From Candidatus Scalindua japonica (GTDB lineage: Bacteria; Planctomycetota; Brocadiia; Brocadiales; Scalinduaceae): a stretch of DNA of 64,000 bases. The position numbers and the translations under genes were made by a program. The notes below the pieces were generated by a model that worked only from the letters and a program-made list of their open reading frames with translations, was not told where the DNA came from and ran no database searches. Each line of letters begins with the position of its first letter. The stretch's first letter is position 1. The stretch is taken from the NCBI RefSeq assembly GCF_002443295.1, contig NZ_BAOS01000001.1, positions 248,001-312,000 of the forward strand, written 5' to 3'. Below are positions 4,168 through 62,007 of this stretch, one piece after another.

Positions 4168-5502
4168 ATGAAAAAAAATAATAATTCGATAAGGGAATGT
4201 TTGCTAAACAAGATAGAGAAAAGGGAGGCTGTAGTAGGGATCATTGGTCTGGGTTATGTGGGTTTGCCGCTGGCAATTCATTTTGGGCAACAGGGGTTCA
4301 AGGTAATTGGTTTTGATGTGGACGAACGTAAAATTGAGATGCTTTATCAAGGGCAGTCCTATATAAAGCACATAAAAATGGACCATATCAATGAGAAAAT
4401 AAAGGAGGGTGAGCTTGAAGCGACAGTTGACTTCACGCGTCTTGGTGAAGCGGATTGCATGCTGATCTGCGTACCTACTCCACTTACTGATAAGATGGAG
4501 CCTGATCTGAGTTATGTTCTGGACACTACAAATTTTATTGCTGATAACCTCCGCGCGGGACAAATTGTTATTTTAGAAAGCACTACATATCCAGGGACTA
4601 CGGAGGAAGCTCTTCTTCCAAGGTTGGAGACTGATGATATGAAGGCTGGGGAAGATTTCTTTCTTGCTTACTCTCCGGAAAGAGAAGACCCCGGTAACAA
4701 GAAATTTGATGCCGCCAATATTCCAAAGGTTGTCGGTGGGGTCACCTCTTCCTGCCTGGAGATTGCGTCAGCTCTCTATAATTGTATTACCCAGGTGGTG
4801 CCGGTATCATCGACTGGGGCTGCTGAGATGACAAAGATTCTGGAGAATACGTTCCGTTCTGTTAATATTGCTCTGGTAAATGAGTTGAAGGTGCTGGGGC
4901 ATAAAATGGGTATTGATATTTTTGAAGTTATCAATGCTGCGGCAACAAAGCCGTTTGGTTATACGCCATTTTATCCCGGACCGGGACTTGGTGGGCATTG
5001 TATTCCAATTGATCCATTTTATCTCTCCTGGAAGGCCAGGGAATACGACTTTGTGACTCGTTTTATTCAACTGGCAGGTGAGATTAATGTGTCTATGCCA
5101 TACTACGTAATAGACAGGACTATGGAGGCTTTAAATCAGCATGAGAAAAGTCTCAAAGGCAGTAAGGTATTGGTGCTCGGTGTTGCATACAAGAAGGATA
5201 TTGATGATGAAAGAGAATCTCCCGGTTATACAATAATGAAGATGTTGTCAGAGAAAGGTGCTATTGTAAGCTATAATGATCCCTGGATTCCGGTGTTGAA
5301 ACCGACCAGAAAATACAACTTCCAAAAAAAGTCCACCCCTCTCACTCCTGATGTATTGCGGGAAATGGATGCCGTAATTGTTGTTACCGATCACAGCGCT
5401 TATGACTATGCTGATATAGTTAAGCATTCAAATGTCATTGTAGATACTCGTAATGCAACCGATAAAATTGATGGGGCTGATGGAAAGGTGTTTTTTGCTT
5501 GA
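4168..5502 (+). CDS. Nucleotide-sugar dehydrogenase (WbpA/WecC type)
   Basis: This protein of about 444 residues oxidises a UDP-sugar C6 alcohol to the acid in two NAD-dependent steps, feeding surface polysaccharide synthesis. The N-terminal Rossmann motif IGLGYVGLPLA binds NAD. The catalytic cysteine is in GLGGHCIPIDPFYL (Cys about residue 278). The C-terminal UDP-sugar binding domain contains VLGVAYKKDIDDERESP. The PIDPFYLSWKARE context fits UDP-N-acetylhexosamine dehydrogenases (WbpA-like) better than UDP-glucose dehydrogenase, but substrate is inferred. ATG 4168 is preferred; TTG 4159 is an alternative, with AGGA at 4152-4155. No glycosyltransferase neighbours are present. Confidence 0.9.
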   Translation: MKKNNNSIRECLLNKIEKREAVVGIIGLGYVGLPLAIHFGQQGFKVIGFDVDERKIEMLYQGQSYIKHIKMDHINEKIKEGELEATVDFTRLGEADCMLICVPTPLTDKMEPDLSYVLDTTNFIADNLRAGQIVILESTTYPGTTEEALLPRLETDDMKAGEDFFLAYSPEREDPGNKKFDAANIPKVVGGVTSSCLEIASALYNCITQVVPVSSTGAAEMTKILENTFRSVNIALVNELKVLGHKMGIDIFEVINAAATKPFGYTPFYPGPGLGGHCIPIDPFYLSWKAREYDFVTRFIQLAGEINVSMPYYVIDRTMEALNQHEKSLKGSKVLVLGVAYKKDIDDERESPGYTIMKMLSEKGAIVSYNDPWIPVLKPTRKYNFQKKSTPLTPDVLREMDAVIVVTDHSAYDYADIVKHSNVIVDTRNATDKIDGADGKVFFA

Positions 5503-5527
5503 GAGTGCAACATTCATTTACCTTATA

Positions 5528-5572
5528 GACGCCTACATTCTCGATACACTGAAGAATGTAGGCGTTTTTTTT
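5528..5572 (+). terminator. Terminator, copy 1 of a repeated hairpin family
   Basis: A 12-bp perfect stem, ACGCCTACATTC (5529-5540) with GAATGTAGGCGT (5554-5565), is followed by eight T residues. Two relatives with nearly the same sequence occur after the PEP-CTERM genes at 60168 and 61200. Confidence 0.85.
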
Positions 5573-58692: not shown

Positions 58693-58955
58693 ATGATTGA
58701 AGAATGCGTGCATTTTAACTCTGACGGTTTAAAGCTTGAGGGTGTTTTGTCATATGATGAAAACGTTATGAGCCCACCACTTGCTCTTTTGTGCTCACCT
58801 CACCCTCACCACAGTTTGCACAAAATATCTTTAATGACAACAGACAACAAAATGCGTATACAAACCCCGATTTTCTATCAATGTGCAGGAATCATATAGA
58901 TGAAGTCATGGGAGAGTATGGTTCTGATACTTCAGGTGATAAGGGTGGTATATAA
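58693..58955 (+). pseudogene. Chimeric remnant: alpha/beta-hydrolase N-terminus joined to another reading frame
   Basis: From ATG 58693 the frame reads the start of a dienelactone-type alpha/beta hydrolase (LKLEGVLSYDEN, LALLCSPHPHH) and then loses similarity and ends at 58899. From about 58812 another frame gives coding-like text (NAYTNPDFLSMCRNHIDEVM, then EYGSDTSGDKGGI) ending at 58953-58955. The most economical view is a deletion that fused remnants of two genes. Neither part would fold alone. Confidence 0.5.
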
Positions 58956-59370
58956 AGAAGTGGTGGAAATGGTAGGTGTTTTACTAGCTCACTCAAGTTG
59001 ATTTTCGTGAATACCACTGAAAGTATTGACAAAAGTTTAGCTTTGTTATCATTTCTTTTTAACACCATTCATAATATCAAGCGTAATCAGGTGGTCAAGC
59101 TAATATGTTATAATCCTTTCATCTTGTTGCTCTACATTCCCGAAATCGCTATAACTAAACATCGCCTTACCACACTACGTAGTGTTTAAACGTGACAAAA
59201 CGTGGCTTTGTTGTTGACAAATAAAAACGTTTATGGTTTACTACGTCGATCAATAGGGGTGTAAACAGATTAATTAGATACATATTGAGATGGATCCTAC
59301 AATTTAGCACATGGGTCTCGCATTGTCCCTTACATTTTATTTATCAGTGAGTAGAGGAGGAAAAGAGAAT
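58956..59370 (+). other. Spacer carrying upstream block A of the PEP-CTERM genes
   Basis: This 415-bp spacer contains the repeated block at 59011-59125 and a Met-initiated 63-codon frame at 58998-59189 that I reject as a shadow of the repeat. The ribosome site GAGGAGG precedes the next gene. Confidence 0.4.
59011..59125 (+). repeat. Repeated upstream block, copy A
   Basis: It shares with 60319-60435 the ordered elements TTGACAAAAG, TTTGTTATCATT, AACACCATT, CAAGCG.AATCAG.TGGT and CCTTTCAT. Both copies precede PEP-CTERM genes, about 250 and 100 bp away. TTGACA (59026-59031) might be a -35 element. Confidence 0.6.
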
Positions 59371-60135
59371 ATGGAAATAATTAAGTCATATTATAATATT
59401 AAGCCTAAAGTCGTATTGTGCATAGTGCTTATATCGCTATTTTTAATCCCACTTATTACGTATGCGACCACAATATACAATATTAAGGATGACTGGAGTG
59501 ACACAAATAACCCCAATGGCGTATGGTCATTAAATAGGAATGGAGCACTCTTAACCGCCAGGATTGCTGGAGGTGACAGTTGGGGTTCCCCACAGCAGGC
59601 GTGGGGATCAGGGCAAAGTTTCGAAAACATTTTTAAGAGTAATGGTACCGAACAGTTCACCCACGACTGGCAGCAGGACGACATAGTTACACACACACCC
59701 AATAGTACGTCACAGTTCCATGAAATAAAATGGACAAGTCCAGAAGATGGCGTATTTTCAATATCAGGAGCAGCTTGGTCAACACGTGCGTTAAGTAGAA
59801 CGAATATATGGTCACTGCACAGCAACGGTAACCTCCTCACACAGGGTGTTCTCCAATTTGGCCCCACATCAAGAGCGAACCCGTTCTTATTTGAGAACGG
59901 AAGTAATGGGAGTTCCGTCATTCAAAACCTATCGTTATTTAAAGATGACACCATACAGTTGCGAATACAAAATATATCTGGCTTAGGAGATTATGTAGGT
60001 CTTAATCTGCAGATCGAAGGCGGGCCAGCAGCAGTTCCAGAACCCGCAACAATCGCCCTTCTCGGTATAGGTTTAACAGTACTTGCAGGAGCAGAAGTAA
60101 GACGCAGACGAAAAAAGAAAACAATTAATAGCTAG
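59371..60135 (+). CDS. PEP-CTERM exported protein
   Basis: This protein of about 254 residues has a signal (KVVLCIVLISLFLIPLITYA), a beta-rich, Gly/Asn/Ser-rich middle with four WSL or WS repeats, and a C-terminal PEP-CTERM signal: VPEPATIALLGIG followed by a helix and ARG-rich RRRRKKK. The signal directs exosortase (EpsH-type) processing and export in Gram-negative bacteria with exopolysaccharide. ATG 59371 is chosen after GAGGAGG; the earlier ATG 59311 adds residues before the signal. The middle has no domain I can name. No exosortase gene is in the window. Confidence 0.85.
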   Translation: MEIIKSYYNIKPKVVLCIVLISLFLIPLITYATTIYNIKDDWSDTNNPNGVWSLNRNGALLTARIAGGDSWGSPQQAWGSGQSFENIFKSNGTEQFTHDWQQDDIVTHTPNSTSQFHEIKWTSPEDGVFSISGAAWSTRALSRTNIWSLHSNGNLLTQGVLQFGPTSRANPFLFENGSNGSSVIQNLSLFKDDTIQLRIQNISGLGDYVGLNLQIEGGPAAVPEPATIALLGIGLTVLAGAEVRRRRKKKTINS

Positions 60136-60167
60136 GTAATTATATTTCAATATAGTTTCATTATACA

Positions 60168-60211
60168 GACGCCTGCATTCTTCATACAACGAAGGATGTA
60201 GGTGTTTTTTT
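60168..60211 (+). terminator. Terminator, copy 2 of the repeated hairpin
   Basis: ACGCCTGCATTC (60169-60180) pairs, with G-U pairs, to GGATGTAGGTGT (60194-60205), then seven T residues. Flanks also match copy 3 at 61200. Confidence 0.8.
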
Positions 60212-60318
60212 ATGTCTACTACATACCACACTCACCAGTAATATACTTGTGTGTCCTGATGTTTAGGCTTCACATTACAATGAACCCCATTATATCACCG
60301 CAACTGTAAGTCTTATTC

Positions 60319-60435
60319 AATACCATACCATTGACAACATTGACAAAAGCCTGGTTTGTTATCATTCCTCATAAACACCATTTAGATACCAAGCGGAATC
60401 AGTTGGTAAATCTGAAGTGTCACAGCCTTTCATTT
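60319..60435 (+). repeat. Repeated upstream block, copy B, in the spacer 60136-60531
   Basis: Counterpart of 59011-59125, with the same order of conserved elements including TTGACAAAAG, TTTGTTATCATT and AACACCATTT. The 396-bp spacer holds no gene; it also contains terminator copy 2 and ends in an AAGGAGG ribosome site. Confidence 0.6.
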
Positions 60436-60531
60436 TTCAATCAGTATTTTAATTTTCTTGTTGATTTATTAATTAAACACTATAGGCTTCTGTATATATA
60501 ATTGTACATTTCAATTAAAGGAGGGTGTATT

Positions 60532-61167
60532 ATGAAGAAGCTTCTCATCTTGGTTTTTGCATTTCTGCTTTGCAGTCCTACCTCACAGGCAACATTAATT
60601 GACAATCTTGATGGTACAATTACAGACACAAATACCGATCTAATGTGGCTTCAAGATACTAGGTATGCCATGACAAGTGGATATGATCATGATGGTAATA
60701 TGGACTGGTATGAAGCAATGGAATGGGCAGAGACACTAAGCTTTGGAGGTTTTAACAACTGGAGGTTACCGTCCATGGATGTCAATGGTGACATGGTTAT
60801 AGTGGATGGCTCCAGTGTAAGCGCAACAGAGCTCCTAGACAACGAATATGCCTATATGTACTACTTTAATGGCATTACCCCGTTTATCCCTGACGTCTTT
60901 ACTAACTTCGCACCTTCTGGGTTACGGAATTACTGGTCTAGTACATTATCAACAACCGATCTAGATAATGCCCATCATTTTCTTTTTGTTAACGGCGGCC
61001 AGAGCGAAATGGACAAGGAATATGGGGGTGGCTATCTTTGGGCAGTGCGTGACATAAATTCTGTTCCAGAACCCACAATAATCACCCTCTTCTGCATCGG
61101 CATAGTGGGACTTGCAGGTGCGGAAGTAAGACGCAGACGGAAGAAGAAAGCAGTTGTTAAAAGCTAG
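60532..61167 (+). CDS. PEP-CTERM exported protein with DUF1566 domain
   Basis: This protein of about 211 residues has a signal peptide (LLILVFAFLLCSPTSQA) and a DUF1566 (Lcl C-terminal) domain: DGTITDTNTDLMWLQD, NNWRLPSMDVNGD and NYWSSTLSTTD are its signatures. It ends in VPEPTIITLFCIG, helix and RRRRKKK, a PEP-CTERM sorting signal. DUF1566 is common in surface proteins; ligand unknown. ATG 60532 follows AAGGAGGGTGT. It has the same upstream block and terminator as the preceding gene, so both may be co-regulated surface proteins. Confidence 0.88.
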   Translation: MKKLLILVFAFLLCSPTSQATLIDNLDGTITDTNTDLMWLQDTRYAMTSGYDHDGNMDWYEAMEWAETLSFGGFNNWRLPSMDVNGDMVIVDGSSVSATELLDNEYAYMYYFNGITPFIPDVFTNFAPSGLRNYWSSTLSTTDLDNAHHFLFVNGGQSEMDKEYGGGYLWAVRDINSVPEPTIITLFCIGIVGLAGAEVRRRRKKKAVVKS

Positions 61168-61199
61168 GTAATTATTTACTAAGATTGATTCATTATACA

Positions 61200-61243
61200 G
61201 ACGCCTACATTCTTTATACACTTAGGGATGTAGTCGTTTTTTT
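61200..61243 (+). terminator. Terminator, copy 3 of the repeated hairpin
   Basis: ACGCCTACATTC at 61201-61212 faces GGATGTAGTCGT at 61226-61237, imperfectly paired, with a T run to 61243. The surrounding spacer 61168-61479 holds no gene. TTGCGACA and ATGCGACA repeats lie just before the next gene. Confidence 0.75.
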
Positions 61244-61479
61244 ATGTCTATTATATCCCAATACATCTCACCAGCAATATCCCTGTATGCCCTTAATTTA
61301 AGTTTTTACATATTCAATCTGTAACATAGGGAACTTTGAAACAGAATGGTTAAGTGAGCAAATATTATTATCAAAACCTGTCGCCTTCCCCCTAAAAAGA
61401 CGACACCTCCCTACTTTCACTCTTCGCAAGTCCTTATTTTTCGGTCAATGGAAAAAATATATTGCGACAAATATGCGAC

Positions 61480-62007
61480 ATGTCATACCAATATAAACGG
61501 GAACCGTTAACACCAGATGAAGCCAACCGACTGGCTAATGCTTGCAAAACCCACGACGAAAAACTGATCATATGGACTTTGCTCGACACAGGATTAAGGG
61601 TTGCAGAATTTTCGAATCTTCAGAGAGACAACATTGATTGGCAGGGACACAGAATTACAATCTACGGAAAAGGTGAACCATACGGAAAGAAAACGAAACG
61701 GAGAGTCATTCCTCTAACTCAACGTACACAAACACTGCTTGAGGGACATTTCTCTTTACACGAAACGCTCGGTATAGGTGTCCGCACAATGCAGAGAATT
61801 GTGAAGAGAGTTGCAAACAGTGCCCATATATCAAGAGATGTAACACCCCATGTGTTACGTCATACCTTTTCTGTTACCGCTGTTCAGAAAGGTCTCTCGC
61901 TCCCCTCTTTACAGCGGATACTTGGACATGATCACTTAACAACCACAGAAATATATTTAAACTTAAGCCCCGAAGATGTTGTGAGAGAATTTAACGAGAA
62001 GTGGTAA
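61480..62007 (+). CDS. Short tyrosine recombinase (catalytic domain only)
   Basis: This 175-residue integrase has the tyrosine-recombinase catalytic set: Arg40 (DTGLRVAE), Lys64 (YGKGEP), His124-x-x-Arg127 (HVLRH), His150 (LGHDH) and the nucleophile Tyr159 (TEIYLNL). It lacks the N-terminal DNA-binding SAM-like domain of XerC/XerD or phage integrases (usual length about 300). All catalytic residues are present, so it may be active in an archaeal-type short form. ATG 61480 is chosen; TTG 61462 is in frame. No attachment sites are proven. It separates the PEP-CTERM genes from the surface genes at the end. Confidence 0.85.
   Translation: MSYQYKREPLTPDEANRLANACKTHDEKLIIWTLLDTGLRVAEFSNLQRDNIDWQGHRITIYGKGEPYGKKTKRRVIPLTQRTQTLLEGHFSLHETLGIGVRTMQRIVKRVANSAHISRDVTPHVLRHTFSVTAVQKGLSLPSLQRILGHDHLTTTEIYLNLSPEDVVREFNEKW

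Follow-up and report, generated by a model that had tools for sequence, protein, structure and literature searches.

Three-prime ends of PEP-CTERM genes in Candidatus Scalindua japonica as DNA modules, probably exchanged by recombination between genes for unrelated exported proteins

INTRODUCTION

How do exported proteins with unrelated bodies come to end in the same sorting signal, and what exactly do their genes have in common? The question is raised by two neighbouring PEP-CTERM genes in a 64,000-nucleotide stretch of the genome of Candidatus Scalindua japonica (the window), whose translations also include, by our reading, several ammonium transporters and multihaem proteins, as would fit an anammox planctomycete. 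An earlier note on this DNA had read the upstream and downstream ends of the two genes as a cassette into which different exported domains are exchanged. Here we follow the parts of these genes through the genome and through related species, and we propose a model for how the 3' ends have travelled.

RESULTS

Two neighbouring genes with unlike cores and alike ends

The two genes and the parts around their 3' ends are as follows.

59371..60135, + strand: PEP-CTERM gene 1, 254 aa, with putative signal peptide, orphan core and sorting signal
60532..61167, + strand: PEP-CTERM gene 2, 211 aa, with putative signal peptide, Lcl_C (DUF1566-type) core and sorting signal
60034..60132, + strand: sorting signal of gene 1, class A, VPEPATIALLGIGLTVLAGAEVRRRRKKKTINS
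60130..60213, + strand: conserved 3' UTR and predicted intrinsic terminator of gene 1 (model R1), including AGC-TAG-GTAATTAT
61162..61245, + strand: 3' UTR and terminator of gene 2 (R1 match)
60214..60265, + strand: conserved DNA past the terminator of gene 1, ending CTCACCAGTAATATACTTGTGTGTCCTGATGTTTA

In translation both N-termini are hydrophobic, and both C-termini show the PEP motif, hydrophobic stretch and basic cluster that characterize TIGR02595 and PF07589. The signal of gene 1 scores 25.6 bits against TIGR02595 (cut-off 16) and 25.9 bits against PF07589 (cut-off 20.7); that of gene 2 reaches 16.5 bits, over the TIGR02595 cut-off, and 20.4 bits with PF07589, just below it. The cores are unrelated, with zero similarity on comparison, in keeping with the differing middles that the earlier note had described. 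For the core of gene 1, relatives sought in 39 related genomes were found nowhere outside the tail region, a PDB search gave no match, and an AlphaFold model built without an alignment was uninformative (pLDDT 37).

The ends are a different matter, and most of what had been claimed for them holds. Signal-coding DNA of the two genes (60034-60126 versus 61063-61155) is 78% alike, and the upstream block reported at 115 bp is indeed present before both, 76% alike over 112-115 bp (59011-59128 versus 60325-60436; E 3.5e-13 in the 4.8-Mb genome). The terminator, too, is common to both: a 17-bp stem at 60167-60207 in gene 1 has its homologue at 61199-61239 in gene 2, with one stem mismatch, GTAGTCG, which recurs in a paralog on contig C4 and in no other copy seen. 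The sequence AGCTAGGTAATTAT likewise occurs in both genes (60130-60143 and 61162-61175), but its placement after the stop has to be corrected: it opens with the final codon, AGC, and the stop codon, TAG, before GTAATTAT. Similarity between the genes runs on past the terminators to about 60265.

Conservation of gene parts across the genome

Is this pattern a peculiarity of two neighbours? From the genome to which the window belongs (G000; 4.81 Mb, 47 contigs) 33 PEP-CTERM genes were collected, giving 528 gene pairs, and their DNA was compared pairwise and part by part: the signal, the 100 bases after the stop (UTR), the 350 bases leading up to the start (5' flank), the DNA further downstream and the core. 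With similarity called at E<=1e-3, the sorting signal is alike in 132 of the 528 pairs, the 3' UTR and terminator in 65, the 5' flank in 7 and the DNA further downstream in 5; core DNA is alike in only 1 of 496 pairs. The sister species G004, with 23 PEP-CTERM genes, gives 211 of 253 pairs for the signal, 22 of 253 for the UTR and 5 of 253 for the core; one group of its 5' matches was discounted, since these genes stand in tandem arrays and the matching DNA is only the tail of the PEP-CTERM gene before. The unlikeness of the cores is apparent also at the level of Pfam families, with Lcl_C and TSP_C well over their cut-offs, PKD just over and a VWA-like domain under its cut-off.

Over the 33 genes, flanks are far more conserved than cores, as the cassette reading would have it. 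Other PEP-CTERM genes of the genome nevertheless lack these flanks to a large extent, which counts against that reading: about half are without the UTR, and most are without the 5' block, which holds only for a subset. The cassette reading thus stands for its 3' half, both genome-wide and through the mosaics described below; its 5' half does not extend beyond the subset.

The 3' UTR and the predicted terminator

Thirteen UTR copies align over 84 positions that comprise the 17-bp stem and a U run. In this alignment 95% of the pair cells are standard and 6 of the 17 pairs have changed on both sides; slid controls are 41-59% paired, and the real stem lies well above shuffled and slid controls alike. 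Stem and U run are therefore predicted to form an intrinsic terminator whose pairing has been kept in the relatives. Known RNA families searched for in the region gave no match.

A search of the genome with the R1 model returned 15 strong copies (E<=1.2e-6), 14 after PEP-CTERM genes and 1 at a core-less relic, as well as two weaker copies likewise after PEP-CTERM genes. One weak match in the window (5496-5572) is a near-identical terminator after a nucleotide-sugar dehydrogenase gene, which is not a PEP-CTERM gene. Because R1 was built from such copies, plain BLASTN with the 3' end of gene 1 and matches in other species are the more independent evidence: BLASTN found largely the same places, and in the sister species most strong R1 matches follow PEP-CTERM genes, with several weaker ones after other genes. 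Some 45-60 bp past the terminator are common to about seven copies in the genome and to sister-species copies.

The relic (C34:75504-75867) consists of the 5' motif, a start region in which ATC takes the place of the expected ATG, a short ORF with a basic tail, and the UTR with its terminator. A second species has the locus too (G008:C102), and the two are 87% alike over 400 bp.

The junction of stop and UTR varies at several loci. Two of the strong R1 copies are displaced from their stops. In C13_80619 (C13:80105-80619) the stop codon is split from the terminator by an element of 377 bp whose inverted ends are 16 bp long (AACACCGATTTTCTCA); no further copy of it was present in the loci fetched. 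The UTR of C10_129680 lies about 210 bases 3' of the stop. At C24:17539 a short ORF resembling a transposase fragment starts soon after the PEP-CTERM stop, where the UTR would be. At G004:C155:45941 and G004:C30:11494 TAG has become CAG and the frame continues into the conserved UTR (..KSQVIIYQH).

The 5' block

Upstream of the genes, four further features were delimited.

58803..59128, + strand: repeat that recurs upstream of the PEP-CTERM paralog on C4 (335 bp, 81% alike)
59011..59128, + strand: 5' block copy 1, CATTGACAAAAG...ATATCAAGCGTAATCAGGTGGT, a probable promoter/regulatory region
60325..60436, + strand: 5' block copy 2
60397..60555, + strand: 5' flank of gene 2 through codon 8, 85% to the 5' end of C13_79350

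Copy 1 is the last 118 bp of the longer repeat, which starts in the truncated 3' end of an ORF for a small HTH protein (in-frame tail 58803-58956); the ORF is intact upstream of the C4 gene. In all, the block precedes 5 of the 33 PEP-CTERM genes (gene 1, gene 2, C4_456357, C23_1270 and, in part, C13_79350) and 3 of the 23 in G004. It is found also at the C34 relic and at two non-PEP-CTERM sites, C29:149847, where it precedes a small ORF that begins with a hydrophobic stretch and seems to be frameshifted, and C13:139081. The block contains TTGACA-like hexamers, and a consensus scan gave no convincing promoter; by eye, its alignment shows no sigma-54 -24 GG / -12 GC pair at the proper spacing. 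We take the block to be a probable conserved promoter region.

Beside the block at both C23 and C13:139 kb lies a 1.1-kb element (98.6% identical between the two) with 27-bp inverted ends, encoding a Y1 transposase and a DnaA-type HTH protein.

Signal classes and DNA descent

The signals fall into two classes, A (PEPTTxALLGIG...AGAEVRRRRKKK) and B (PEPSLxLLxGISLVGLVGVGAVRKIKQK), and genes of both classes carry the same UTR. Nearly all of 19 RRRRKK tails in two species use the arginine codons in the order AGA-CGN-AGA-CGN, a pattern that points to inheritance of the DNA and not to convergent evolution at the protein level. Concerted evolution was not found among class-A signals, whose similarity is 0.786 within genomes and 0.782 between G000 and G004 (p 0.12). 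Since modules are no more alike within species than between the two, most of them must be old; the module family probably predates the species G000 and G004, and exchange has probably been occasional. With no genome-wide homogenization, only the copy between gene 2 and C4 described next is demonstrably recent.

Mosaic genes

Four comparisons reveal genes in which the module, the core and the 5' flank have different closest relatives. The clearest involves gene 2 and C4_456357, on another contig, through the following feature.

61063..61286, + strand: 3' module of gene 2, starting at V-P-E-P and reaching about 47 bp beyond the stem of the terminator; 220/224 positions match the C4 paralog

Over these 224 bp the two genes agree at 98.2%, against 61% of nucleotides (39% of amino acids) in the core and 40% in the DNA past the module (Fisher 3e-32 and 2e-48 for the contrasts), and the edges are abrupt, at the V-P-E-P codons and at 61286. 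What happened here is that the 3' module was copied between genes while the cores stayed put, and not that a core moved between fixed flanks. Because a copying tract cannot extend into unlike cores, every model predicts sharp edges at V-P-E-P, and such edges do not tell which enzyme was at work.

In the second mosaic, the 5' end of the same gene 2 (60397-60555) is closest to C13_79350, at 89% over 135 bp, compared with 68% for C4; the cores of C13_79350 and gene 2 are unrelated. The third spans two species. G000_C13_131351 and G009_C3_223923 (sister species) have orthologous cores, 75% alike in amino acids and 80% in nucleotides, joined to signals of class B and class A, respectively, which are 63% alike in nucleotides (p 2e-4). 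Similarity is 80% in the core, with 87% in its final 75 bases, and drops to 63% once the V-P-E-P codons are reached; the two genes differ in their N-terminal parts as well. In the fourth, the flank past the C4 module is 85% alike to that of C13_79350 and the module itself 72% (p 0.001); the DNA in common between these two continues for a further 200 bp past the unit. Neither C13_80619 nor C13_131351 has a recognizable signal peptide, and such recombined genes look decayed.

DISCUSSION

A model for the spread of the 3' module

Based on these observations, we propose as the probable explanation that the 3' ends of PEP-CTERM genes are DNA modules exchanged by recombination and thereby joined to unrelated exported domains. 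It is observed that the modules are shared and, in this genome, almost confined to PEP-CTERM genes; the mosaics are observed as well. In the genus, many PEP-CTERM genes would end in one inherited module of about 225-240 bp, which would run from the PEP motif, hydrophobic stretch and Arg/Lys tail through the stop, the UTR and the terminator to the 45-60 bp beyond. Dispersed copies would exchange DNA through ordinary homologous recombination or gene conversion, and such an event could put a new exported domain in frame with a complete tail that says, in effect, 'sort me and stop here'. In a subset of genes a second segment, the probable promoter block, may join the exchange.

What would become of the tagged proteins? 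By the established model of the family, they would be cut by one of two exosortases and delivered to the exopolysaccharide or surface. The genome encodes two such enzymes (PF09721 matches of 220 and 130 bits). One, C45:135611, lies within an EPS locus that also encodes FemAB-type and amidotransferase partners; the other, C13:199049, lies about 7 kb from a class-B gene, and its best match, though below cut-off, is to the VPDSG-specific model. It is our guess that the two exosortases serve the two signal classes.

The same data can be read as whole-gene duplication, in which cores diverged fast beyond recognition while selection kept tail and terminator. PEP-CTERM proteins have been described as among the fastest evolving of their genomes (Haft 2006, PMC1569441), the cores of gene 2 and C4 are still recognizably related, and tandem pairs on C1 and C13 have most of the linker in common. 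We nevertheless consider duplication unlikely. Lcl_C, TSP_C and PKD are different families, and an orthologous core at 75% amino acid identity carries the other signal class in another species. The mosaics already disfavour the idea, and between gene 2 and C4 it would have to leave a stretch that extends past the terminator at 98% beside a core at 61%.

The module might instead be a small mobile 'sorting tag' of about 225 bp, whose in-frame insertion at the ends of genes for exported proteins would enrol new proteins into the exosortase pathway. The unit is discrete, with similar 3' limits in several copies (equivalent to about 60265-60276) and abrupt edges at both ends in gene 2 and C4, and a tyrosine recombinase ORF adjoins it (61462-62007). 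Only the catalytic part of the recombinase family is matched by this ORF (profile positions 95-259 of 263), and it has only weak relatives, near one other copy in this genome and one G004 locus. Against such a tag, most copies have no related recombinase gene nearby, C13_79350 and C4 remain alike past the unit, and the 5' block shares no inverted ends with the 3' flank (only one shuffle test in 80 gave p below 0.02, with p 0.003, which we take as chance). Beyond the discrete limits the sequence offers no positive sign of mobility, and we regard the idea as improbable. Selection alone, with the exosortase constraining the signal, termination or a regulator constraining the UTR and zero exchange, is more doubtful still: the covarying stem and signal DNA equally conserved within and between species agree with it, and it can account for old modules staying alike, but the synonymous AGA-CGN-AGA-CGN order and the conserved DNA past the terminator need common descent or DNA copying, and it is insufficient for the 224-bp tract of gene 2 and C4.

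Exchange of modules by recombination, the reading that we prefer, has practical consequences. A recent copy event with defined edges makes the recruitment of new domains to the bacterial surface testable by comparison of strains, and the common UTR provides a DNA handle for finding PEP-CTERM genes in this group.

Comparison with known systems

Elsewhere, genes for surface proteins are known to recombine at conserved ends that flank variable cores. The genes described here resemble them in their conserved ends, unlike middles and paralog mosaics; they differ in that nothing found here points to phase or antigenic variation, an expression site or a site-specific recombination signal.

The Proteobacterial counterpart of the upstream block would be the sigma-54 motif (PrsK/PrsR) that precedes PEP-CTERM genes there (PMC1569441). 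Both are DNA blocks upstream of several PEP-CTERM genes, whereas the block here stands at few such genes and also at non-PEP-CTERM sites, and has no -24/-12 pair visible by eye.

The closest relation is to the PEP-CTERM/exosortase (EpsH) system itself (TIGR02595 / PF07589), with which this genome has in common the sorting signal and the exosortases, one of them in an EPS locus. Haft 2006 (PMC1569441) described the signal as a module of roughly 24 residues on unlike proteins, expanding by paralogy, so the modular idea is old. That work reports species-rich clades, whereas class-A signals here are not more alike within than between two species. It inferred the spread of the tail from proteins and left the DNA route undescribed; the words 'terminator' and 'recombin-' are absent from its text, and our search of the open literature found nothing on PEP-CTERM with gene conversion and nothing relevant by title on PEP-CTERM with terminator. 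Here the module is traced in DNA, together with the stop, the UTR, the terminator inside it and some DNA beyond. New, then, are a DNA unit that includes stop and terminator, the mosaics that it has formed, and one recent copy event.
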